Positions 744 through 54,367 of a stretch of 64,000 bases of DNA are shown here, piece after piece. The notes beneath the pieces are model-generated. The model was not told the DNA's origin, did no database searches, and saw only the letters and a program-made list of their open reading frames with translations. Position numbers and translations under genes: made by a program. Source of the stretch: a candidate division CSSED10-310 bacterium (lineage in GTDB: Bacteria; CSSED10-310; JAFGJC01); contig JAFGLW010000012.1 of NCBI GenBank assembly GCA_016927905.1, positions 1 through 64,000 of the forward strand. The letters run 5' to 3'. Position 1 is the stretch's first letter; each line of letters opens with the position of its first letter.

Positions 744-3700
744 ATGAGGAAATTTCTTTTATTCGCATTGGCCACATTGATGGTCACATCCGCAGGGTTT
801 GCTCAGACCTGCACAGTCGGTTCGACCACCGGAATAACCGACAACCGACTGCCGTTTTACCAGTTCTACACCTATTCGGAAGGCCAGTATTGTATTCCGG
901 CTTCCGAAATGGCGCTGTGCTTCCCGACCGGCGGGACGTTCTCGGAGATCGGCTGGCACTGGCGGAGCGGCGCGGCGGTGAGTTCGTCGTACACTTCCAT
1001 CGACATCTACCTGAAAAACATCCCGGATCCCTGTCCAAACCTCTGCACCGCACCCGATCCGAACCCCGGGACCCTGGTTTACAGCGGTCCCTGGAGCTGT
1101 ACTGCAGCCATCGGATGGAAGATGATCGCGATGAGCACGCCGTTCACCTACAACCCCGGCGACTGCCTGCTGGTGACCGTCTGCGACACGCTCGGTCCGG
1201 ATTACAACTACGGCAGCTCGGTCTACTGGTCAACGAATTCGCTGACCGGCTCGGGATTCATGCGCTATTCCGACTCCGTTGATCCGGTCGACTGCGACCT
1301 GACGACTGCGCTGTCATACTCAAGCTGCATTAACGAGTGGGTTTCCACCGGGTTCACGGATGCTTCCGTTCCCACGCCCACTCCGACCACTCCGCCCCCG
1401 GGCTGCGATCACCAGATCTGCCTGATCGACTCCTTCGGCGACGGATGGAACGGCGGAACGGTGGCGGTCACCGTCAACGGCAACCCGGTTCCGGGCAGCC
1501 CGTTCACGCTGGCTTCCGGCACGGGCCCGACCTGCTACACCTTCACTGCCGACACGGGCGATGCCATCTTCTGCGACTACACGCCGGGCAGCTGGAGCTA
1601 TGAGAACGAATATTATGTTCTCGACGGCTCCGGCCTCGAGCTGGGTCGGACCGGATCCGGCGGAACGGTCCCGGCCGACCTGACCCTGACCGGCAACTGC
1701 CCCTCGGGCATCGTCATCTCACCCGATCCCTCGGTCGTGAACTCCAGCGGGTGCGGCAATCAGACGCTGACCCACACCCTCCAGGTCGGCAACTTCACCG
1801 GCCAGAACGACACGTTCAACCTGTCCATCACGGGCAACACCTGGACCACCACTGTCACCAGCACCAACCCGGTCGCCATCAACGACAACCAGTTTGCGAC
1901 GGTGACCGTGGACGTGGTCGTTCCGGTCCTGACCGCCCCCGGGTCGGATACCTGCACGTTCAACGTGGCGGCCGTCACCGGCACCGACACCGCGACCTCC
2001 ACCCTCACCACCAACTACCTCCACATGGGCAGCGTGACCACACTGTTCGCCCAGAACAACGGCCAGTCGGGCAACATGTTCGACATCGACGTGGCCTATC
2101 CCACCACCATCACCGCGTTCGATATCAATGTTGATGCCATAGCGGTCAACATCGAAATCTACACCAAGAGCGGAACGTGCGTCGGTTTCGAAACCAATGC
2201 CAGCGCCTGGACCCTGCTGTATACCGTGACCGGTGTCGCGGGTGCGGGGCCGGACAATCCCACGTTCATCGATCTGTCCTCCATCGGCGGCTGGCTGGTC
2301 ACCGGCGGGACGTACGGCGTGTACATCACCTGTACGAACGGAACGTACATGAATTACACGACCGGCGGCCCGTGGACCTATTCGAGCGGTCCCCTGACCG
2401 TCACCACGCATTCCGGTAACGCCTACCCGTTCAGTTCCTTCTTCGCACCGCGGGCCTGGAACGGAACCGTCTACTACTCCTGCGATACCGTCCAGGGTGT
2501 TTATCTGACTCCGGCGATCTCGTTCGGAATGGATGTCCCCGGATCAACGGTTATCCACAACTTCCTGGTGCAGAACTTCAGCGGCGTGAGCGAGTTGTTC
2601 GATCTGAGCATCGGCGGCAGCCCGGCCTGGACCACCACGATCAACGGCCTGGCACCTCCGATCACCATCGGACCCATTCCCGACGGCGGAAACCAGACCT
2701 TCACGGTGGAAGTTGTGATTCCCGGTACTGCAACATATCCGGATACCGACACCTGTACCGTGACGGCCACGGGTCAGACGTCCGCCTACAGCGACACGTC
2801 CGACATCACCACCCAGGCGTTCCCGTCCCTCTTCTACGCTTACGGCCTGGATGTTTATCCGGGTACTGGCGATCTGAAAGGGTTCTTCGATCTGGGGGTT
2901 CCCGGCAACTGGTTCGACATCGGAGCGGGCGGCATTGATTTCCATCCCGCCGGCGACTTCCTGGGCAATGATTTCTCCCAGATCTACATGGTGGGATATT
3001 ATGACAATGTCCTGAAGTCTGTGAATACGGTTTCCGGCGTGGCGACCACCATCGGCGCTTGTGCTCCGACAAACGGTCAGTGGACCGGATTCTCCGGCGC
3101 TGCGGACGGCTCGGCCATGTACGCCATGAGCAGCTCCTGCGGCACGTCATCCACGCTGCACACCGTCGATGTCACCACCGGAGCGGTCACGGCAATCGGC
3201 ACCACAACCACCGCACCCTGCATCATCGACATTGCGGTCTCAGCCGACGGCTCGGCCATCTACGGCGTGGATCTGGTCGATGACAATCTGTACTCGATCG
3301 ATCCCACGACCGGCGCCGCCACCTCAATCGGCTCCACCGGCGCTGCTGCCAACTACGCGCAGGGTATGGATTTCGACTATGCGACGGGCGAGCTTTACTG
3401 GGCCGCCTACACCGCCCAGGGCGAACTCCGCACCCTCGACATCGGATCCGGCATGTCAACGCTGGTGGGTGCATTCCCGAGCGGCGCGGAAGTCGACTGC
3501 CTCAGTGTGGCTCAGGAAGCGGGCGCTGCTTACATCGCCCTGATCCCGGCCATGTCCAATCAGTCCGGTCCCGCAGGCTCGACGCTGACCCACACGTTGT
3601 CTCTGGAGAACCACACCGGTGCTCAGGACACCTTTGACCTGGCGATTTCCGGTTACACCTGGACAACGGTCATCACCAGCACCAATCCGGTGACGATCGA

Positions 3701-4688
3701 TGACGGCGCTGCGGCTGCCGTGACGGTCAACGTGACCATTCCGGCCGGTGCGGCCACTCTGGATTCGGATTCCTGTACGCTGACCGCCACCGGGCAGGTT
3801 TCAGGATTGTCCGATTCCTCGACGCTTAACACCACGGCCATGCCGCCGACGACGGAAGCTTACGGTATTGAACTTGTGAACGGCGAGCTGGAATACTGGC
3901 CCGACCTGCATCAGTTCGACACTTGGACCGTCATCGGAACCGGCGTCAGCGCATACTCCTTCTTCGCCGGCGACTTCCTCGGCACAGACCACACCCAGTT
4001 GTACTGCATCACTTACGACACCAACACGCTGTACAGCGTCGATGTGGCCACCAGCGTCGCAACCATGATCGGTTCGGTTGGCGCACCCACCGGAGGCGCT
4101 TCCTGGTCCGGCATGACCAGCACCTATGACGGCTCGGTGATGTATGCGATTTGCACAAACATTACGCAGTCCTATCTGTACACCGTCGATCTCACCACTC
4201 CGAGTGTCACGCTGGTCGGCCAGATCACGAACGCCGCCGGCGCCATCGACGTTGCCATCAACTCTCTCGGCGAAATGTACGTGCACGACATCGTGGCCGA
4301 TTCCATCTACAGCGTCGACACTGCAACCGGTGCCGGCACGCTGGTCGGAACCACCGGATTCTCGGCCAACTACGCGCAGGGCATGGACTGCGACCAGGGA
4401 TGCGATGCATTCTACCTGTCCGCATTCAATGCCGGCAACTACTTCACCGAACTCCGGCTGGTCAATACGACGACCGGTGCCTGCCCGCTGTTGTCCGCGA
4501 TGGGATACTTCCTGGAAGTCGACTCGTTCGGCATCCTGCCTGCTTCGATCCCGCCGACTCCGACTCCGACTCCGAGTGGCCCGACGCCCACTCCGGGCGA
4601 CATCCCGACCACCGGACCGGTTGGCCTGGGTATCCTGCTGCTGGGTCTGGGCGCCCTGCTGGGCATCAGCTCCTTCCGCAGGAAATAA
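744..4688 (+). CDS. Large secreted P/T-rich protein with duplicated Ig-like and propeller-like units and IPxTG-type tail
   Basis: 1314 residues. Residues 1-20 form a signal peptide (basic start, hydrophobic core, A-G-F-A-Q cleavage region). Residues about 221-320 hold a D-S-F-G-D-G-W-N-G-G module like those in secreted proteins of Bacteroidetes. Ig-like units with a THTL...N(F/H)TG-QDTF(N/D)L pattern occur near 325-425, 590-690 and 935-1030. The last two are each followed by a repeat-rich, propeller-like unit (about 695-925 and 1040-1265) with recurring V-D-x-x-T-G-x-x-T-x-I-G and a shared NYAQGMD. The end is a P/T linker, I-P-T-T-G-P, a hydrophobic segment and F-R-R-K. The start at 744 has GGGAGG 7 bases upstream. 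It is probably an abundant surface or adhesion-type protein; the ligand is unknown. Its C-ending codons look strongly biased, which would fit high expression. Confidence 0.9.
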   Translation: MRKFLLFALATLMVTSAGFAQTCTVGSTTGITDNRLPFYQFYTYSEGQYCIPASEMALCFPTGGTFSEIGWHWRSGAAVSSSYTSIDIYLKNIPDPCPNLCTAPDPNPGTLVYSGPWSCTAAIGWKMIAMSTPFTYNPGDCLLVTVCDTLGPDYNYGSSVYWSTNSLTGSGFMRYSDSVDPVDCDLTTALSYSSCINEWVSTGFTDASVPTPTPTTPPPGCDHQICLIDSFGDGWNGGTVAVTVNGNPVPGSPFTLASGTGPTCYTFTADTGDAIFCDYTPGSWSYENEYYVLDGSGLELGRTGSGGTVPADLTLTGNCPSGIVISPDPSVVNSSGCGNQTLTHTLQVGNFTGQNDTFNLSITGNTWTTTVTSTNPVAINDNQFATVTVDVVVPVLTAPGSDTCTFNVAAVTGTDTATSTLTTNYLHMGSVTTLFAQNNGQSGNMFDIDVAYPTTITAFDINVDAIAVNIEIYTKSGTCVGFETNASAWTLLYTVTGVAGAGPDNPTFIDLSSIGGWLVTGGTYGVYITCTNGTYMNYTTGGPWTYSSGPLTVTTHSGNAYPFSSFFAPRAWNGTVYYSCDTVQGVYLTPAISFGMDVPGSTVIHNFLVQNFSGVSELFDLSIGGSPAWTTTINGLAPPITIGPIPDGGNQTFTVEVVIPGTATYPDTDTCTVTATGQTSAYSDTSDITTQAFPSLFYAYGLDVYPGTGDLKGFFDLGVPGNWFDIGAGGIDFHPAGDFLGNDFSQIYMVGYYDNVLKSVNTVSGVATTIGACAPTNGQWTGFSGAADGSAMYAMSSSCGTSSTLHTVDVTTGAVTAIGTTTTAPCIIDIAVSADGSAIYGVDLVDDNLYSIDPTTGAATSIGSTGAAANYAQGMDFDYATGELYWAAYTAQGELRTLDIGSGMSTLVGAFPSGAEVDCLSVAQEAGAAYIALIPAMSNQSGPAGSTLTHTLSLENHTGAQDTFDLAISGYTWTTVITSTNPVTIDDGAAAAVTVNVTIPAGAATLDSDSCTLTATGQVSGLSDSSTLNTTAMPPTTEAYGIELVNGELEYWPDLHQFDTWTVIGTGVSAYSFFAGDFLGTDHTQLYCITYDTNTLYSVDVATSVATMIGSVGAPTGGASWSGMTSTYDGSVMYAICTNITQSYLYTVDLTTPSVTLVGQITNAAGAIDVAINSLGEMYVHDIVADSIYSVDTATGAGTLVGTTGFSANYAQGMDCDQGCDAFYLSAFNAGNYFTELRLVNTTTGACPLLSAMGYFLEVDSFGILPASIPPTPTPTPSGPTPTPGDIPTTGPVGLGILLLGLGALLGISSFRRK

Positions 4689-4705
4689 GTCTTAACTGAT
4701 TCAAA

Positions 4706-4736
4706 ACCCCTCCTTTCGGGGAGGGGTTTTTTATTG
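4706..4736. terminator. Rho-independent terminator between convergent genes
   Basis: A perfect 9-bp stem (AACCCCTCC / GGAGGGGTT) with a 6-nt loop is followed by a T-rich run on the + strand. It lies 17 bp after the 744-4688 gene. A short A-run on the other side means it may also serve the leftward gene ending at 4766. Confidence 0.85.
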
Positions 4737-4765: not shown

Positions 4766-5845
4766 TTAATACCATTCGAAATGCTCCACATCCAGGTTGC
4801 TGAGCATTTCGGTCAGGTCCGGCGAGATCATGGCGGACAGGAACGAGGCATACCCGGATGACTGGACATCCGTCCAGGGAAAATCCAGGATAACGTAAGT
4901 GGCGGGTGTCGTCGATGTGGGATTCAACCCGGTTGAATAATAGGAAATCCCCTCGCTCCATTCCGGCCAGAACCAGTACATTCCATATACTTCCAGTATG
5001 ACAAACAGGTTCATGTCCAGAACGGTTTCCGTCCGGTTCCACAACAGATCCCACAGCGTGAACTGCTCACCCCCGTAGAAAACCTCGTGACTCAATACCA
5101 GGTCGACCTCATACTCGAAAGCCGGAGTGGGCGAAGCGGACGGTGTTGCCGTTTCGGTGGGCGGGACCGGAACCGTGGGGGTGGCGGTCGAGTGCTGGGG
5201 AGTATCCGTCATTCCCGGCGTCATCGTGGGCGCTGCCGGGGTATCGGTCGGCGCTGCCGGAGTGGTGGTGGGAGGCATCGGCGTCATGGTGACGGGCGCC
5301 GTCGGGGTGGTGCTGGGCGGGGTTGTCGGGGTCGGCAGCGGTGTCTCCGTACCCGGCGCTGTCGGCGTCGGGGTGGGCGAAACCCCGATGGTAAATTCGA
5401 ACGGGTTTCCCTGGGCGACGGGTTCATCCCCGGTGGTGAAGGAATGGTTGTCCTCCCCATAGACATAAGTTGTCAGATACTCCGGACCCCTGGCTTCAAG
5501 GTAGTATTCAACATATCCGACAGACGGGACCGTGAAAGATCCCACCCAGTAATCCGCCTCCTCGATGGTCGCGAAAAACACCATGGGGATCGACAGCCAT
5601 GCGCCCCCGTCAACCCGGTAATGCAGGTCGCCGGCATCCATGGCGCCCACGGGCTGGACGCCGAGATAGAAATCGACAGGCAATGATCCGCCGGGATACA
5701 GCGGATCCCGCATGGTCGGACCGGTGGGCGGCACGAGTTGAGCGGGAACATGAACCGCATCGATCAGGTCCTGGGCGTCAACGGGCACCAAATCTCCCAG
5801 GACAGGCAGAAACAGCAGGCCGATTATCCAGATTTTACCGCGCAT
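4766..5845 (-). CDS. Secreted protein: N-terminal beta-rich domain, P/T linker, conserved C-terminal domain
   Basis: 359 residues from the ATG at 5845, which has AAGGAGAG just upstream; an in-frame ATG six codons earlier has no such site. Signal peptide about 1-24 (ends V-D-A-Q). Residues about 45-153 form a beta-rich module (HYRVDGGAW, YYLEARG) that looks like a carbohydrate- or protein-binding fold, but I cannot name it. A Thr/Pro linker covers 156-241. Residues 243-359 align with the C-terminus of the gingipain-like protease at 50600-54367: G-(E/D)-x-F-x-L-xxx-L-x-N, then D-x-(N/D)-x-(F/Y)-(V/I)-(I/L)-L, then W-(F/C)-W-P-x-W, and an aromatic E-W-Y / E-Y-R end. The gene stands alone and is convergent with the 744 gene. 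Confidence 0.8.
   Translation of the reverse strand: MRGKIWIIGLLFLPVLGDLVPVDAQDLIDAVHVPAQLVPPTGPTMRDPLYPGGSLPVDFYLGVQPVGAMDAGDLHYRVDGGAWLSIPMVFFATIEEADYWVGSFTVPSVGYVEYYLEARGPEYLTTYVYGEDNHSFTTGDEPVAQGNPFEFTIGVSPTPTPTAPGTETPLPTPTTPPSTTPTAPVTMTPMPPTTTPAAPTDTPAAPTMTPGMTDTPQHSTATPTVPVPPTETATPSASPTPAFEYEVDLVLSHEVFYGGEQFTLWDLLWNRTETVLDMNLFVILEVYGMYWFWPEWSEGISYYSTGLNPTSTTPATYVILDFPWTDVQSSGYASFLSAMISPDLTEMLSNLDVEHFEWY
4769..5119 (-). other. Conserved C-terminal domain, copy 1
   Basis: This encodes residues 243-359 of the secreted protein above. It shares the WFWPEW-type motif, spacing and aromatic C-terminal end with copy 2 at 50603-50950, although the rest of the two proteins is unrelated. It sits directly after a P/T linker in both, as expected for a sorting, anchoring or binding module. 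I do not recognise it as a named domain. Confidence 0.65.
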
Positions 5846-6181: not shown

Positions 6182-9100
6182 TCAGTTGAATCCGTGTTTT
6201 TTCAGGTAATAGGACAGGATTCTGGGTGTGATGCCCAGGATTCCGGCGGCTTCCTTTTTGACACCGTTTGCCTGTTCCAGCGCTTTCGACACGAGGTGTT
6301 TTTCGATTCGTTCCATATTCGATTTCAGGTTCATCCCGCTGATCAGCGCGTCGACCGCCGGTTCCGCCCCGCCGGAACGATCCGCTGCGCCGCCGATTTC
6401 CGCCGGAAGCGCTTCAAGGGAAATCTGATTTCCTGTTTCCAGAATGGTGGCTCTCTGGATGGCATTCTCCAGTTCCCGGACGTTCCCGGGCCAGGAATAT
6501 TCCACCATGGCGGCCATGGCCTCCCGGTTGAAATCATCGAACTTGCGTTTGATCTCCCGGCTGTATTGTTCAAGAAAATGACGGGCCAGCGGCAGAATGT
6601 CCTCCTTCCGCTGCCTGAGGGGCGGCAGGTCGATATGGATCACGTTCAGCCGGTAGTACAGGTCTTCCCTGAATGTGCCGTCCCGAATCCTTTTTTTCAG
6701 ATCCTGATTGGTTGCGGAGATGATCCGGACATCGACTTTCCGGGGCGTTCTCCCGCCGATGGGTGTAACCTCCCGTTCCTGGAGGACCCTGAGAATTTTA
6801 GCCTGTGTGGCGGGATTCATGTCGGCGATTTCATCCAGGAACAGGGTTCCCCTGTCGGCTTTCTGGACCAACCCGATCCGGGCATTCACGCCGGTTGCCA
6901 CACCCTTCTCGATCCCGAAAAGTTCGGCTTCGAGCAGGTTTTCGGGCAGGGCGGCGCAGTTGATTCCGATGAAGGAGCATTGTTTTCGGGGGCTGTTGAA
7001 ATGAATGGTTTTCGCCACGATTTCTTTCCCGGTACCGGTATCGCCGCTGATGAGAACGGAGGCGTTCGATGCCGCCACCCGGCCGGCGATCCCGATGACC
7101 TTGTCCATGGCGCTACTCCGCCCGATCAGCATTCCCATCCGGTAGCGTTTACCCAATTCTTCTTTCAGGCGGAGGTTTTCCTCGTTGAGAGCCAGTCGGG
7201 TGGCTTCCAGGGCTTCACGGTTCTTGACGTTTTCCAGAGCCACCGAAGCCAGTTCCGCCACGATTTCCACCAGCAGTCTGTCGGTGAAGCTGAACAATCC
7301 TTGTTCCAGTGTGTTGTCCAGGTAGATCAATCCCTTGACCTGATCCGACGGCTGGTTACCGGGAATGGGGACACATAAAATGGATCGCAGCCCCAGGATC
7401 TGGATGCTGCGCCGTTCGCGGAACGCGGTATCCGCGCCCACATCGCCGCTCAAATAGGTCCGTTTCGTTTCCACGACATGATTGATGATCGTCCGGGAAG
7501 TCTCGAACTCCGGCTCTGAAATGTCCTCCTGCCGTATGTTCCGGCTGATACTGAAATGAAGATCTCCTTCGGGTCCCCGGGTCATCAGGAATCCTCTTTC
7601 TCCGCCGGTCGCTTCCACAACCTGGTCCAGCACGGATGTCAGCAGGCGGTTCAAATCCGTGGCGGTGAAGAATTCTCTGGTGCTGTGCAGCAGAAACTGG
7701 ATTGGTGCCGAATCCGACGTTTTCATCTTCTTTGTTCCCTCCTGGGGGATTGACCCGGTTTTTTCTGTTTCCGTTTGACCGGGCGCAGGGCTCAGCAGCC
7801 GGATTGCGCTGTCGATCCGCTCGGCTGCCGGACGCATTTTGAACCGCTTTGCCAGGGATTCCGCCTTCCGGTAGAGGTCCAGGGATTTTTCCGGGGAATC
7901 GACGGAAGCGGCGATTGTGCTCAGAGCGAACACCGACACCGGCGAATCTTTGAAAATCGAGGACCGGACGATATGGCCCGCAAGCCGGGCGCCCATGTCG
8001 CCCAGCGGAGATCGGACGGTGGGAAGATCGACCCGGAAGAACAGGTGGGGAATGGCGCTGTGGTCATCGATATCCTGCATCAATGCCTGAAGTTTCCCGG
8101 CTGCCTCCATCTGTCCGGCGGCATCCTTCATCCGGACCGACAACTCAACCAGGCCTCTCAGGACACGAAGCATCCCGCCGGTGATCCCCAGCGGATCCAG
8201 GATCTGCCTGGAACGCTCGAAAAGCTTTGCCGCTTCAGCGAGATTCCCGGCATCCAGCCGGACAAACCCCAGCTCAACCAGGACCCTGCCTTCCCGGTGC
8301 CGCCGGTTGAACGAGCGGTTCAGTTTACCGGCAGCCCGGAGATATCGCACGCCAGAAGAAGTGTTTCCCGTCAGGATGTTCACTTTCGCCAGAAGATCAT
8401 AAGCTTCCGCCGCCAGCAAGGGGTCCGGGATTTCCCGTGCAATGGCCCGAACCGATTCCCCGAAGGTCTTCGCCTGTTTCAACTGTCCCTGATTCAGCCG
8501 TGTTTTCCCCATCGAAACCAGGCAGTCCGCTTCCCCCCGTTTATCTCCCTGGTTTCGATAGATCTCCAACGCCCGCTGGTATTCCTGTTCCGCCCGGCTG
8601 ATATCTCCGACGATTTCACATGCCACCGCCAGTTTTTTCCGGCCGTCGGCCACGGTTTTTGGAAAGCCGATCCGGTCCAGGATTTCCAGCGCCTTGTCCA
8701 GTTCCCGGACCGCTTTCCACGGTTCGCCCTTTTCGATCAGCGCGCCCGCCAGGTTCACCCGTGTGATATTTTCAATCATGAAATGCCGGGCGTTTTCCGC
8801 TATTTTCATGGCCTGCAAAAACAGCTGTTCCGCCTGACCGATGCGTCCCTGCTCCATCAGTGTCCTGCCGATGCTCATCAGGCAGGCTGCGCTGTGTTCG
8901 ACCTGACCGCTGTCCTGAAAAATCCGCAGCGCTTCCTCGTTGATTTCCCTGGCCTGGGGAAACCGCCCGGTTTCATGGTAAATGTCACCCATGAGCTGCA
9001 GGCTGCGCGCCACACTCATGGGTGAATTCAGCCGGTTGAAAATTTCCCGTGCCCTGACGGCCTCCTCCAGCGCCGTGTCATAGTCCCCCAGCGCCAGATT

Positions 9101-11509
9101 GCATACTCCCGCTCCCAGGCGGCACCGGGCCTCCAGCGTGAGGTTGCCGTTTTGCACGCACAACGCCGCCGCCTGGTTGAACCGGTCCAGCGCCGGTCCG
9201 GTTTTGCCGGTCGAATAGAGGATCCCCGCCAAACCGAACAAAGCCTCCATCTGAAGATCGATCACGCCGGTCCGGCCCGCGGCATCGTTCAGTTTCCGGT
9301 ATGCGTCCTGAGCCTCCTGAAGGTTCCCCAGCGCCCGTTGTGCAATCCCCATGTGCCGCAGCACGCCCAGAACCGCCGGCTCCGTGTCCTGCATCCTGAT
9401 CCGCAGCGCATCTTTTGCCAGTTCGGTCACCGCAGCATACTGGGCATGTTCCTGCAACCGCTCGATCGCCTTCAGATAATACGGCAATGCCGTTTCGGGG
9501 TGATACCCGCGGGACAGATGCCGGGCGATTTCCGACTGATCCGGCGCTGCATGGGATATCAGATATTCTGCAACCGTATCATGCAGGTCGCGCCGGCGCC
9601 GGGCCGGCATCCGATTGTATATGAGTTCCAGAAAAGCCCAGTGTCGAACCGTCAATTCACTCCTGAACCGGCGCAACAGGCCGCTCTTTCCCAATTCGTC
9701 CAGAACATCCAGAAACCGCTGGGGATTCATGCCGGCAACGCCGCAAACCGGGGAGATCTCCCGTATGGGATCCGACACGGCCAGCGCTTCCATCACGGTC
9801 AAAGCTTCGTGCGACAGATTTCTCAACCGCGCCAGCATATTGGATCTGTAACTGCCCGCCCGGTACCGCCACTTTTTTGGCGCTAAATGCCATCGATTCT
9901 CCCGGTAGGCGAGCGCGCCGCTTTGGAACGCATTCATCACGAGTTCCTGGGCAAGCCCGGGATTGCCTCCGGATCTCTTGATAATCCTGTCCAGTAAGGG
10001 TTCCGGAAGTTCCATGGTTCCCAACATAGACCGGACGAGCGCAGCCATGTGATCGACAGGCAATCCATCCAACCGGATGGTCTGCCCGGATGACCGGATC
10101 TCCGATATCCACTCGGCTGTTTCCGAAGCTTCCGTTTTCGCGGCCTCGTCCATCGACATCACCACTGCGATACGTTTCAGGCCGCTCAATGCGGAACGGA
10201 AAAACCGTATTCTGGACGCCGACATCCGATCCACATCATCAATCCAGATCAACACCGGGCGCATTTCGGCCAGATTGCCGATCAACCGACCGAACGCCTT
10301 CGGCGGCGTGCCGATTTCCGCGCCGGGATCCTGGAACGATTCCCATCCCGGAAACGCCGAAAGTGATCGACCGACCCCTTCATTCAATCTTTTTGCATCC
10401 TCCGGTGTCATCCGGCCCCGATATTGTTCCATTCTGCCGAGTACCGGCTGGAGTTCCACATCCAAGGGAAGGCCGTGCCCCGCACCAGCGAATACCGGCA
10501 GGACAGCCACGCCTTCCCACCCTTTCAAAAGCTCAAACTCCTCCAGCAACCGGCTCTTGCCGATCCCGGCCTCCCCCTTCAGAAAACAGACCTTCCGGCC
10601 TGAACCGTCTTCCGGCGCAAGAATATCACCCAGCCGCTTCAATTCGTCACCGCGCCCCATGAAAGCCGGTCGAAACAGTTCCGCCGGAGCTTCCCAGTCG
10701 GGCACCTTCCCGGACCGCTCACAATCCGGCTTTTTCTCGGTCAGGACCGACCAGATCTCCCTGGCGGACGGCAACCGGTCGGCGGGATCTTTTTCCAGCA
10801 GCCACAGGATCACCCGCTCAAGCGATGATTCCTGCTTAATCAGCATCAGGGACCGGGGCCGCTCCTTGACCTGTTTCAAAAGAAGCTCATAAAACGTCCG
10901 GCCTTCAAACGGCAGGATTCCAGACACCGCTTCATACAATACGACACCCAGCGAATACAGGTCCGAACGGATATCCGGAACGGCACCCCTGCATTGCTCC
11001 GGTGACGCATACTGGACCGTCCCGGCGAAAACCTTTCCCTCCGATCCGGAATGCGGGCCGATACGGGACAGGCCGAAATCGGTTATTTTTACCTTGCCTG
11101 ACCGGTCGACCAGGATATTCTGCGGTTTGATATCGCCATGAACCACTCCCCGCCCGTGAAGATAATCCATCGCCTGCAGAACCTGGGGAATGATGTTCCA
11201 GAGCACACGACTGCGCCGCTCGGAACCGGGACACCCGCTCTCCTCGAGACAAGTCCGCAAATGCACGCCATCAACCAGCTCCATGACCAGATAACTCTTC
11301 TCCCGATCGATGAACCAATCGTACAGCCGGACAATATTGGGATGCCTTAACCGCGCCAGAGCCTGAACTTCAAGCGAAACAGACGCCGCCGCATGAATCT
11401 CCTTGATCGCAACCGGGTTCCCGGCATCATTCCGACAGGCATATACAACCCCGCCGCCTCCGGTTCCCAGGATTTTCTCAACGTGATATTTCCCTGCAAT
11501 GACGTTCAC
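6182..11509 (-). CDS. Giant regulator: Ser/Thr kinase, signalling ATPase, TPR, GAF, sigma-54-type AAA+ and Fis helix-turn-helix
   Basis: About 1775 residues. Kinase (about 7-260): glycine loop GTGGGG, V-A-I-K lysine, H-G-D-I-K-P-Q-N in place of the usual HRD, and D-F-G. Signalling ATPase (about 285-700): Walker A GEAGIGKS. TPR-like helical repeats (about 700-1160). GAF (about 1290-1415). AAA+ of the sigma-54 activator family (about 1465-1690): Walker A GDTGTGKE. A Fis-type helix-turn-helix closes the protein. The loop that should read GAFTGA reads GVATGV, so sigma-54 contact is doubtful. I chose GTG at 11509 because AGGAAGTGG precedes it and a TTGACA-17-TAATGT promoter overlaps the more upstream ATG (11542), which has no ribosome binding site. 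It probably couples a signal to transcription; neither signal nor target can be read. Confidence 0.88.
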   Translation of the reverse strand: MNVIAGKYHVEKILGTGGGGVVYACRNDAGNPVAIKEIHAAASVSLEVQALARLRHPNIVRLYDWFIDREKSYLVMELVDGVHLRTCLEESGCPGSERRSRVLWNIIPQVLQAMDYLHGRGVVHGDIKPQNILVDRSGKVKITDFGLSRIGPHSGSEGKVFAGTVQYASPEQCRGAVPDIRSDLYSLGVVLYEAVSGILPFEGRTFYELLLKQVKERPRSLMLIKQESSLERVILWLLEKDPADRLPSAREIWSVLTEKKPDCERSGKVPDWEAPAELFRPAFMGRGDELKRLGDILAPEDGSGRKVCFLKGEAGIGKSRLLEEFELLKGWEGVAVLPVFAGAGHGLPLDVELQPVLGRMEQYRGRMTPEDAKRLNEGVGRSLSAFPGWESFQDPGAEIGTPPKAFGRLIGNLAEMRPVLIWIDDVDRMSASRIRFFRSALSGLKRIAVVMSMDEAAKTEASETAEWISEIRSSGQTIRLDGLPVDHMAALVRSMLGTMELPEPLLDRIIKRSGGNPGLAQELVMNAFQSGALAYRENRWHLAPKKWRYRAGSYRSNMLARLRNLSHEALTVMEALAVSDPIREISPVCGVAGMNPQRFLDVLDELGKSGLLRRFRSELTVRHWAFLELIYNRMPARRRRDLHDTVAEYLISHAAPDQSEIARHLSRGYHPETALPYYLKAIERLQEHAQYAAVTELAKDALRIRMQDTEPAVLGVLRHMGIAQRALGNLQEAQDAYRKLNDAAGRTGVIDLQMEALFGLAGILYSTGKTGPALDRFNQAAALCVQNGNLTLEARCRLGAGVCNLALGDYDTALEEAVRAREIFNRLNSPMSVARSLQLMGDIYHETGRFPQAREINEEALRIFQDSGQVEHSAACLMSIGRTLMEQGRIGQAEQLFLQAMKIAENARHFMIENITRVNLAGALIEKGEPWKAVRELDKALEILDRIGFPKTVADGRKKLAVACEIVGDISRAEQEYQRALEIYRNQGDKRGEADCLVSMGKTRLNQGQLKQAKTFGESVRAIAREIPDPLLAAEAYDLLAKVNILTGNTSSGVRYLRAAGKLNRSFNRRHREGRVLVELGFVRLDAGNLAEAAKLFERSRQILDPLGITGGMLRVLRGLVELSVRMKDAAGQMEAAGKLQALMQDIDDHSAIPHLFFRVDLPTVRSPLGDMGARLAGHIVRSSIFKDSPVSVFALSTIAASVDSPEKSLDLYRKAESLAKRFKMRPAAERIDSAIRLLSPAPGQTETEKTGSIPQEGTKKMKTSDSAPIQFLLHSTREFFTATDLNRLLTSVLDQVVEATGGERGFLMTRGPEGDLHFSISRNIRQEDISEPEFETSRTIINHVVETKRTYLSGDVGADTAFRERRSIQILGLRSILCVPIPGNQPSDQVKGLIYLDNTLEQGLFSFTDRLLVEIVAELASVALENVKNREALEATRLALNEENLRLKEELGKRYRMGMLIGRSSAMDKVIGIAGRVAASNASVLISGDTGTGKEIVAKTIHFNSPRKQCSFIGINCAALPENLLEAELFGIEKGVATGVNARIGLVQKADRGTLFLDEIADMNPATQAKILRVLQEREVTPIGGRTPRKVDVRIISATNQDLKKRIRDGTFREDLYYRLNVIHIDLPPLRQRKEDILPLARHFLEQYSREIKRKFDDFNREAMAAMVEYSWPGNVRELENAIQRATILETGNQISLEALPAEIGGAADRSGGAEPAVDALISGMNLKSNMERIEKHLVSKALEQANGVKKEAAGILGITPRILSYYLKKHGFN

Positions 11510-11532
11510 ATATTCCACTTCCTGAAACCCGA

Positions 11533-11561
11533 ACATTACCATATATGTAACCGGTTGTCAA
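11533..11561 (-). promoter_or_regulatory. Sigma-70-type promoter of the giant kinase regulator
   Basis: On the minus strand, TTGACA (11556-11561) and TAATGT (11533-11538) are separated by exactly 17 bp. The expected transcript start falls just before the AGGAAGTGG and GTG at 11509. This supports the shorter start for the gene. Confidence 0.55.
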
Positions 11562-50599: not shown

Positions 50600-53500
50600 T
50601 CAGCGGTATTCCCAGTTGAGGACCTGGATATCGCCGATCAGGTTCCAGGTCTCGGGCTCAAAAGCGGCTCCGATGAACGTGCAGCCTGCGGACGCGCCCA
50701 CGCCGGCGGGCCAGGTAAAGCGCAAAATGTCTTCATGGTATGAGAATGCCGCCGGGACGGTATATCGAACCGAATCGATACCCTGGTAAACGTCAATCCA
50801 GCTCGGCCAGCACCAGAAATTGCCGAACAGCCCGAGCAGGATGTAGGCATCGCAGTCATAGGATCCGGAATCCGGGTTGTGAAGATACATATGAAGATAA
50901 AACGCGTCTCCCGCTTCCAGCACCAAATCCGCCATCATCAGCTCCATGCCCGTTTCGGGATTGGGCGATTGCGTGGCTGTCGGGTCGACCGGAGTGGCCG
51001 TGGGAGGGGCCGGAGTGGCCGTGGGAGGGGCCGGAGTGGCCGTGGGGGGCGGAGATGTGAATGTTGGGATGGGCGTGGCTGTCGGGTCGACCGGAGTGGC
51101 CGTGGGAGGGGCCGGAGTGGCCGTGGGGGGCGGAGATGTGAATGTTGGGATGGGCGTGTTGGTCGGGTCGACCGGAGTGGCTGTGGGAATCACGGTCGGG
51201 GTGTGTGTGGGAGCCTGCGTGGGGGTTGGTTCTGTGCATTCCGTGACATAATCAACGATTACATCATCAATGTTCCAGCCGCAGTAGGTCCAGCCGGAGT
51301 CCGTGGGTCCGATACCCCAACGGATCCGGACATCCGAATACCCGGTGGCGAAGGTCGAGATATCGAATTCCCACAATTCCCAGGTTCCGCCGTCCCGTGT
51401 TTCGCTGTTCGACCAGACGGTCTGCCAGGTACTGCCGCCATTGTTACTGATTTCGATATTCGCGTGATCGTAAATCGACCGCTCCACTCCCAGCCAGCAC
51501 CAGAATCTCAGGTTGACCTCGGTCGCGTCAGTGCAATCGAACGATTCGGTTGTCAGATACGCCGTGGTGCTCATGTTGTTGGGATAGTCGCCGTTCAGAT
51601 TATACCCGACGACGTTGTTCCCGGTGTATCCGGTGTCCGGATCGGGATTCCCGTACTGACCGCCCTGGCCCGTGGGATCACCCCAGGCCCATTGGTTCTG
51701 GACCGACCATCCCGGATCGGTGTCCATATTTTCTTCGAGCATGATAACCTGTTCATGGGTCATGAAAAAGTAGTAACTTCCGCCGTTGTCGTCCACGGCC
51801 GTGTTTCCACCCTCATCGGTACTGGTCACCATGAAAAAATACCCGGTGCACTGAGCCAATCCGTCGAGCGTGATCTCATGCTCCGTGGTCAGTGTCTCGT
51901 CGGAAACCTCGTTGCCCGGTGGCGGTGTTTCTCCCCAGACAACCGCACTGTCCGCATGTTCATCCGTCGTCCAGGTGATGACGGCGGTGTCGGGACTGAG
52001 ATGAGCGATGGTCACGCTTGAAATGACCGGGCTCTGACAGTCCGCCGACGCCGTATCATAAACATCCTCCATCTCGCCGTTGCAGTCCGCGTCCTGGTAG
52101 TGGGCCGTTATGATGTCACCGTGAGACAGCAGAAGGAATCCCGGACCCGGATCGGTGTCGGATGTCAGGATGGTTCCAATGAAAATACTGGAGTCCGGGC
52201 CGGTTTCGGTCAGGATTACGGTCTCGGGAACCGTCTCGCTGTCGGAGGCGATATCGGCCAGTGCCGTATCCAAGGCCCCGGGATTGAGATTCAGGTCGGA
52301 GTCCGACACCATGATGGATACGATGTCGCTGCAGTTGTATTGGGCTCGGTCAAGCACGATCACGCCACAACCCGCCGGAGCGATGGTTACCAGGGCCTGG
52401 TACGGCATGAGATTCTGACCTGAAACGGTGATGATCATGTCGCCGATCGATGTCGGCGATAGATCCAGAATCGCGCCGCCCGAAGCGTCGGTTGTTTCCA
52501 CGACCTGGAAATCCCCCGTCTTGTATGCGCAGACTACGGCGTCGGCAACCGGATTGCCGCCGCTACTGACCTGGACCGGGAACGGCATGGGGGCCATTGG
52601 AGCGGTCAACATGTGCGTGACGGTGGGTGTAATGGCCGCATCGGACCGCATGAAACTGGAGCAGTCGCCGAAAAGAACGTACTGCTGCATCACTTCCTGT
52701 GCATCACTTCCGGAACCGATTTCCTGGACCAGGTACATCATGCCGTCAAACGTCATTTCACCCAGCCGGAACCGTCCGCCGGGCATGGTTCCGGCCGCAT
52801 CGCCGCAAACGGCAAAACACACGCCCCATCCCAGTATCGCCGATGGATCCCAGGAGGTCGAGGTCGAGGAGCTGTACATCGCCACGGCACCGTGCGGATC
52901 GGTTCCATAACCGCCTTTCATCCAGTGTTCGGCAAAGCAGTCCGAACTGCCGGCAAACCCGCCGTTGTCGCAGGAAACGTCCATGACGAACGGAGTGCGG
53001 TGTCCGTTGACCAGGGCATCCACATGGGAGTTGTTGAAATAGGGACTGCTCCAGGAACTCCCGCTGCCATGTCCGTAATAAGAAATCCAGAACCGACCGT
53101 CGTTGACGGCGCTGGAAATATTGGCGGTCGTGCCCTGGCCGTTGGAATCGTAAAGCCGGTCGACCAGGCAATCGGGATTGTGCGTCTGCCAGCGGTCTGC
53201 AATCTCATCCAGCCGCTCATCGTCGTTGATGCCCATGGGGCCGCTGTCGCTGGACGATATTCCGGTGATGTGATCCAGCCACCCGCCGGCTTCCGGGTTC
53301 GTTTCATACGTCAGGATCTTGTCCAGCTGGGGACCCAGTTGTGTGCTGTTCTGGGCTGAAATCCGCGAGATGAAGACATCCGGTACGATGTCACTTCCGG
53401 CCAGCAGTGTGAATTTGTAATCCGAAGCGCAGGAGCCGATTCCATAAAGGGGGTTGATCTGCGGGGAATCGCCTACCAGCAGGATGTAAACCGGCTTGGG

Positions 53501-54367
53501 ATTCCAGGTGTCGTAGACGTTTTGAATATAGGCAAAAACATTGGCGGACGACGTCCCGGTTTCCGAGGTGGGAGCAACCGTGACGGCCAGTCCGCGCCGG
53601 ACCTTCCAGTCCACAAGGGAATTCAGCTCCGCCAGGGCGGCATCGTAAGCGATGAGCAGCATCGGTTCCGGGTCGCTCCGCTTTTGAATGTTCAGGGATC
53701 GATAGTTGAGGATGTTGCGGTTGTAAACCGCATGGAAGGACGGAAATACGAACCCCGGCCCGAAACCCGTTCCGCCGGATGTCGTCAGTTCAATCTCGAT
53801 CCGGGTGGCCACATGAATTGTCCGAGCGGCGGGATCGAAACGGACGGGAGTGATTTCGAGTAGAATGACTCTGAAATCCCGCATGACCATGTCATCGGTT
53901 ATCCGGGCGATTTGGGCGGGATACCAGCCGGATTCCGAATAAAGCATCTCGTTCATTGTGAAAGGCGGCCGGGGATCTCCACGCTTGTATTGGGGCTGGG
54001 CGGGCCAAAGATTGTACTCGTCCAGCGTCGATGCATCCCGGACCCGGACCGTCAGTTCCACCGAAGCGCCGTGCGGGACGGCAACGAACTTTCTCAGGGC
54101 GGGCACCAGCGGGTTTCCAGGTTCGGCCAGAATGCCGCTCCCTGGAATGGAAACGATATCGAATTCCCGGTCGTCCTGTTTCTGCAAGGACACATTCATT
54201 CCCGGTATGGTCACGGTCAATGACGTTCCGGCCAGATTCGACGACCGGACGTCCACCGCGGCATCCATCCCCGGGACAGCTCCGGAGTTGAACGGAATCC
54301 ACTTGGACGAAACGGTGGGAGAAACAAGCAGCAGAATAACGCTTAATACGATCAATCTGAACCTCAT
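50600..54367 (-). CDS. Gingipain-like C25 cysteine protease with P/T linker and conserved C-terminal domain
   Basis: 1255 residues from ATG 54367, preceded by AAGGAGGATCC; the longer frame has no such site. Signal peptide 1-21. A propeptide-like beta region (about 25-235) precedes a C25 catalytic domain (about 235-570) with H433 in Y-Y-G-H-G-S and C466 in D-V-S-C-D-N-G. Ig-like (about 590-660) and fibronectin-III-like (about 780-860) domains, and a MAM/jelly-roll-like domain (about 875-1043), follow. The linker (1045-1139) contains the 27-residue repeat described at 50971. Residues 1140-1255 match the C-terminal domain of the 4766-5845 protein. It is a secreted protease; substrate unknown. 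Classic gingipains use the T9SS C-terminal domain; the one here is different. Confidence 0.9.
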   Translation of the reverse strand: MRFRLIVLSVILLLVSPTVSSKWIPFNSGAVPGMDAAVDVRSSNLAGTSLTVTIPGMNVSLQKQDDREFDIVSIPGSGILAEPGNPLVPALRKFVAVPHGASVELTVRVRDASTLDEYNLWPAQPQYKRGDPRPPFTMNEMLYSESGWYPAQIARITDDMVMRDFRVILLEITPVRFDPAARTIHVATRIEIELTTSGGTGFGPGFVFPSFHAVYNRNILNYRSLNIQKRSDPEPMLLIAYDAALAELNSLVDWKVRRGLAVTVAPTSETGTSSANVFAYIQNVYDTWNPKPVYILLVGDSPQINPLYGIGSCASDYKFTLLAGSDIVPDVFISRISAQNSTQLGPQLDKILTYETNPEAGGWLDHITGISSSDSGPMGINDDERLDEIADRWQTHNPDCLVDRLYDSNGQGTTANISSAVNDGRFWISYYGHGSGSSWSSPYFNNSHVDALVNGHRTPFVMDVSCDNGGFAGSSDCFAEHWMKGGYGTDPHGAVAMYSSSTSTSWDPSAILGWGVCFAVCGDAAGTMPGGRFRLGEMTFDGMMYLVQEIGSGSDAQEVMQQYVLFGDCSSFMRSDAAITPTVTHMLTAPMAPMPFPVQVSSGGNPVADAVVCAYKTGDFQVVETTDASGGAILDLSPTSIGDMIITVSGQNLMPYQALVTIAPAGCGVIVLDRAQYNCSDIVSIMVSDSDLNLNPGALDTALADIASDSETVPETVILTETGPDSSIFIGTILTSDTDPGPGFLLLSHGDIITAHYQDADCNGEMEDVYDTASADCQSPVISSVTIAHLSPDTAVITWTTDEHADSAVVWGETPPPGNEVSDETLTTEHEITLDGLAQCTGYFFMVTSTDEGGNTAVDDNGGSYYFFMTHEQVIMLEENMDTDPGWSVQNQWAWGDPTGQGGQYGNPDPDTGYTGNNVVGYNLNGDYPNNMSTTAYLTTESFDCTDATEVNLRFWCWLGVERSIYDHANIEISNNGGSTWQTVWSNSETRDGGTWELWEFDISTFATGYSDVRIRWGIGPTDSGWTYCGWNIDDVIVDYVTECTEPTPTQAPTHTPTVIPTATPVDPTNTPIPTFTSPPPTATPAPPTATPVDPTATPIPTFTSPPPTATPAPPTATPAPPTATPVDPTATQSPNPETGMELMMADLVLEAGDAFYLHMYLHNPDSGSYDCDAYILLGLFGNFWCWPSWIDVYQGIDSVRYTVPAAFSYHEDILRFTWPAGVGASAGCTFIGAAFEPETWNLIGDIQVLNWEYR
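50603..50950 (-). other. Conserved C-terminal domain, copy 2
   Basis: This encodes residues 1140-1255 of the protease. The core pattern G-D-x-F-x-L, L-H-N, D-C-D-A-Y-I-L-L, W-C-W-P-S-W, I-L-R-F-T-W and the end V-L-N-W-E-Y-R aligns with copy 1 at 4769-5119, in a protein unrelated elsewhere. Confidence 0.65.
50971..51180. repeat. In-frame tandem repeat (81 bp with nested 21-bp units) in the protease linker
   Basis: Near-identical copies start at 50971, 51073 and 51154, the second being 81 bp from the third. The first copy is 102 bp because the 21-bp block coding T-A-T-P-A-P-P is duplicated inside it. All unit lengths are multiples of three, so copy number can change without frameshift. Confidence 0.85.

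Follow-up and report, generated by a model that had tools for sequence, protein, structure and literature searches.

The C-terminal domain (CTD) shared by two proteins encoded in the window, i.e. the whole stretch of 64,000 nucleotides analysed, represents a new family of folded modules that mostly lie at the C-terminus and are found on about a hundred exported proteins of its CSSED10-310 host. We consider it reasonably likely that the CTD serves to sort proteins exported by the Sec pathway to the surface or to anchor them there, possibly with export by type II secretion (T2SS). A typical bearer would comprise a Sec signal peptide, a catalytic or β-rich body, often a proline/threonine-rich (P/T) spacer and, at the end of the chain, the CTD sandwich. 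Envelope machinery would read the folded CTD, and the cargo would be kept on the cell surface. The preliminary description had proposed a sorting or anchoring module of a new type, a proposal supported by the further C-terminal copies, by their signal peptides and linkers, and by exosortase-type tags in the same position.

The first gene (4766–5845, minus strand) encodes a protein of 359 aa according to ORF translation. Its product starts with a predicted Sec signal peptide, MRGKIWIIGLLFLPVLGDLVPVDA (5774–5845, minus strand; translation and a heuristic score of 4.3), followed by an N-terminal region without significant match in Pfam or NCBIfam, a P/T-rich linker visible in the translation (5117–5383, minus strand) and a CTD of 116 aa (4769–5116, minus strand), which was identified by a single-query genome search and by an HMM (E 5e-28) and ends with the last residue of the protein. 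The second gene (50600–54367, minus strand; mechanical ORF to 54553) encodes a C25 protease of 1255 aa from its likely start. It contains a Peptidase_C25 (gingipain-type) catalytic domain (52664–53662, minus strand; family-model match), a MAM-like domain (51242–51727, minus strand; alignment with a protease of another phylum member, G005), a P/T-rich linker (50951–51241, minus strand; translation) and a CTD of 116 aa (50603–50950, minus strand; genome search and HMM; AlphaFold pLDDT 96.6). In pairwise BLASTP, the two tails aligned over 112 of 116 residues with 26% identity (E 2e-11). They are homologous, so that the common tail of ~115 residues, as originally described, was upheld both in its positions and in its near-full-length alignment. 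The window also encodes a 1786-aa protein (6182–11542, minus strand) with Ser/Thr kinase, AAA, TPR, GAF and sigma-54 activator domains.

A search of the host's own genome (G000, 86.5% complete) that started from the first tail alone gave 101 matches. About 90 of these had E < 2e-4, and the tail of the protease was recovered at E 3.6e-7. A profile of the two tails, a search suggested at the outset, returned ~100 good copies in this genome, chiefly C-terminal. An HMM iterated over three rounds (115 positions) retrieved 98 full-length copies at E < 1e-20, and a profile of 48 diverse tails gave 111 matches in the whole genome at E ≤ 0.001. These copy numbers and E values place the similarity far above chance; ~4% of genes carry the domain. 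Profile searches detected 59–111 copies per genome in all five sequenced genomes of the host's order, which represent five separate genera, and none in the three other genomes of phylum CSSED10-310 (eight phylum genomes searched) or, at E 0.001, in 33 outgroup genomes from elsewhere in Bacteria or Archaea. Scanning 84,980 species genomes with peptide patterns, whose reach is limited, yielded CSSED10-310 records only. The family is highly diverse in sequence, at about 25% identity. A phage or plasmid origin was rejected, with no relatives among viral contigs or plasmids; the CTD fold matched no viral fold at E 0.001.

The CTD ended 0–3 residues from the stop codon, mostly directly at it, in 94/98 copies. 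Signal-peptide-like starts, as scored by a simple home-made script (threshold score ≥ 3.0), were found in 83 of the 91 CTD ORFs uncut at a sequence edge, compared to none of 17 window genes for cytosolic proteins. This figure is slightly low because the script overlooked at least one clear signal peptide (C26:15761) among the eight failing ORFs. Over the 40 residues preceding the CTD, a P+T content of at least 40% was reached in 60/98 copies and in 11/450 background segments of the same proteins. Signal peptides, which had been noted for the two initial proteins, thus proved general (at least 83/91), whereas the linker, though frequent, does not occur throughout. Likewise, C-terminal placement, named at the outset as a point to check, applied to 94/98 copies of the own genome but not without exception: at least four copies, in this and other genomes, are N-terminal or internal. 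G000:C24:3915–5459 encodes, in this order, a signal peptide, the CTD, a P/T linker and propeller-like repeats, and in G000:C21:33416–35191 the CTD comes directly after the signal peptide and a second, damaged copy lies downstream. The gene at the latter locus appears to be frameshifted (G000:C21:33416–35478), the copy having an internal deletion. G000:C26:15761–16360 consists of a signal peptide and the CTD and nothing else, a related N-terminal or internal copy is present in another genus (L116:3–1196), and one protein of G002 has P/T linkers on both sides of the domain. Since a small number of copies lie elsewhere than at the C-terminus, the CTD is probably a retained docking module rather than a cleaved tail. 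Counting against a sorting or anchoring role, neither a cleavage site conserved in sequence nor a membrane segment was seen in it.

AlphaFold (37 sequences) predicted an eight-stranded Ig/FnIII-like sandwich (pLDDT 96.6, pTM 0.86). The nearest solved folds are Ig/FnIII-like as well (factor XIII, RhoGDI, V. cholerae RbmA), none of them close, and no T9SS tail was among the top 50 solved-fold matches. At E 0.01, none of 48 CTD members matched Pfam-A, which places the domain in neither a carbohydrate-binding nor a known adhesion family; a match of the latter kind had been named beforehand as something that would refute the idea. NCBIfam and PADLOC gave no match for any of the 48 members at the same threshold, and no PDB sequence matched. 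A single PHROG match of one member (E 0.006) was taken as chance.

In the own genome, the cargo includes 11 C25, 9 S8 and 5 C1 proteases, in addition to M14, M6 and M1 peptidases. Other bearers are GH18 proteins, a PAD_porph homologue (Porphyromonas-type deiminase), FG-GAP and Kelch propellers and β-helices. A CTD subtype beginning with x-G-M was found on 6/11 C25 proteins and on 4/87 others (Fisher P 8e-5), so that domain and cargo partly evolve together. At G000:C22:185318–189536, an apparent frameshift places a C25 part and its CTD in different frames.

The strongest evidence that the CTD sorts or anchors its cargo comes from an exchange with exosortase-type tags. The neighbouring gene (744–4688, plus strand) encodes a secreted protein of 1314 aa with DUF4394 and DUF6923. 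After a P/T linker, this protein bears the exosortase-type tail GDIPTTGPVGLGILLLGLGALLGISSFRRK (4596–4685, plus strand; tail comparison), its end reading P/T linker, then IPTTGPVGLGILLLGLGALLGISSFRRK. About 8–17 matches to this tail, many being weak, were found in each genome of the order. Genes 744–4688 and 4766–5845 are convergent, with a terminator-like site (4703–4730) between them. Conversely, in G005, which belongs to another order of the phylum, C25 proteases occur without a CTD, and several of these terminate in a motif that includes proline, a hydrophobic segment and basic residues. In the genome search, one of these proteases scored above the curated cut-off for IPTL-CTERM; scanned at the protein level, it reached 19.7 bits, the cut-off being 20.5. 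This protease shares 31% identity with the window protease in the catalytic region and 41% over 173 aa of the MAM-like domain, and homology ends where the tails diverge. Taken together, the tails of the window neighbours and of these homologues show one cell using two kinds of tail in the same design, and relatives bearing either. In bacteria without the SprA translocon, the CTD apparently takes the place of established surface-sorting tags. PEP-CTERM and IPTL-CTERM tags, served by exosortase (XrtH), resemble it in their position in homologues, often after a linker, and in the large number of cargo proteins per genome. However, they are short, combine a motif with a transmembrane helix and a basic end, and are cut off by an intramembrane enzyme, whereas the CTD is a large, soluble, folded sandwich of 115 residues without a hydrophobic helix. 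An XrtH-like exosortase of 186 aa is encoded in the own genome (L178:6151–6708, minus strand, G000:C28; TIGR04177 E 2.5e-22, 79.6 bits, just under the cut-off of 86). Loss of exosortase as the cause of the switch to the CTD was rejected because an exosortase-like protein persists in all five CTD genomes.

The most likely exporter of CTD proteins would be the T2SS, judging from two complete GspD clusters with a CTD gene at each. Two GspD secretins of the host score above the curated threshold, with GspE, GspF and pseudopilins alongside. The C19 cluster encodes, in one direction, GspE, GspF, pseudopilins, GspK, L and M, GspD, a Big_1 lipoprotein and a CTD protein. In the C11 cluster, a gene for a GspC-like protein with a PDZ domain, then GspD and the remaining genes, directly follow a CTD subtilase gene. 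The order GspD, lipoprotein, CTD gene, in one direction, recurs in G002, and in G004 a CTD gene adjoins the T2SS cluster. In a simple estimate, a CTD gene would lie within two genes of both own-genome clusters by chance in about 3% of cases, so the linkage is suggestive only. Sec signal-peptide-like starts (83/91), combined with a complete T2SS in the same genome, are what is required of T2SS cargo. G005 and G007, which are devoid of the CTD, have both cluster types too; the T2SS is therefore not specific to the domain and probably predates it. In the five CTD genomes, the Big_1 lipoprotein (L179:11770–12909, plus strand; homologues in L182–L185, L199 and L202) carries a conserved SPDPTGPAA-like stretch beyond its lipid cysteine, and the start of the adjoining GspD itself resembles a lipoprotein signal. 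The lipoprotein is a possible T2SS accessory. A role as CTD-specific receptor was weakened because homologues adjoin GspD in the CTD-less G005 and G007. No dedicated CTD receptor or translocon was found among the loci examined. MYXO-CTERM and GlyGly-CTERM proteins (myxosortase, rhombosortase) carry C-terminal surface-sorting tags and cross the outer membrane to the surface by the T2SS as the last step (PMC11980579); those tags are short, membrane-spanning and cleaved, whereas the CTD is a folded domain. In the pectate lyases PelI/Pel3, an Fn3 β-sandwich is part of the T2SS recognition signal (PMC7949064), but it is N-terminal and limited to one enzyme family, whereas the CTD is found on unrelated cargo.

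Since gingipains are T9SS substrates, the resemblance to T9SS type A CTDs (TIGR04183, Por_Secre_tail) had to be considered. These are likewise folded Ig-like end domains (PMC5445135), occur in tens of copies per genome and are borne by many Sec-exported proteins, including gingipains. An Ig-like sandwich at the C-terminus (94/98 at the stop codon) is the T9SS hallmark that the CTD does possess, and the gingipain-like cargo, the peptidylarginine deiminase homologue and a PorU-like C25 peptidase without CTD would also suit a divergent T9SS CTD served by a T9SS beyond detection. This peptidase (L142:1854–4904, minus strand, G000:C27; NF033707 226 bits against a cut-off of 420) could serve in processing, in a genome devoid of a T9SS. 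However, SprA (TIGR04189) was absent from the own genome, at 86.5% completeness, and from the seven other phylum genomes, and PorV (NF033709) did not exceed the cut-off in any of the eight. TIGR04183 tails numbered zero in the own genome and 82 in G008, an unplanned positive control in which the same search detected SprA and many PorV proteins exceeded the cut-off. Moreover, comparison of the CTD profile with 29 T9SS tails of G008 covered 12 columns at a probability of 9%, whereas two halves of the CTD family gave 100%. T9SS tails also differ in length (about 70–80 residues versus 115), and some CTD copies are not C-terminal. Membership in the T9SS family was ruled out on the basis of the missing SprA, PorV (over cut-off) and TIGR04183 and of the profile comparison, in agreement with the initial suggestion of an export module other than a T9SS CTD, and a divergent, hidden T9SS is disfavoured as very improbable. 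Eight TIGR04183 tails in G001 and one in G004, where SprA was not found, perhaps reflect contamination or transfer.

A different role altogether would be that of a substrate-binding module, similar to carbohydrate-binding modules, which glues secreted enzymes to food particles or extracellular polymer and has no part in sorting. Such modules commonly have P/T linkers, a β-sandwich and a conserved W-x-W-P-x-W stretch, some CTD copies lie N-terminally or internally, and among solved folds the biofilm scaffold RbmA has the best TM-score (TM 0.67); at the sequence level, ligand binding would moreover resemble sorting. We nevertheless regard this role as unlikely, given that the cargo includes many non-enzymes as well as enzymes of differing substrates, that the chain nearly always ends exactly with the CTD and that sorting tags hold the same position in sister proteins. 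The sequence diversity of the family, and a subtype that partly tracks cargo class, could also be explained by an Ig-like fold multiplied through domain duplication without any common function. The conserved position at the stop codon, the conserved motifs and the high copy number in five genera argue against such a history, which appears quite improbable. Sorting or anchoring at the cell surface thus remains the preferred function of the CTD. A bolder version, in which the CTD is the portable folded recognition and anchoring signal of most T2SS surface cargo, and hence the first common T2SS export domain, having arisen in one CSSED10-310 order and superseded exosortase tags, is tentative and rather doubtful.

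The CTD is the likely destination signal for roughly 4% of the genes in an uncultured lineage, whose products are currently annotated by their front ends alone or not at all, and its profile should be of use to annotators. If the sorting function is correct, the domain would establish a third principle of C-terminal surface sorting beside T9SS domains and short sortase tags. The selection of T2SS cargo has been called elusive (PMC7949064); if the T2SS reads the CTD, this choice would become testable with one transplantable domain.
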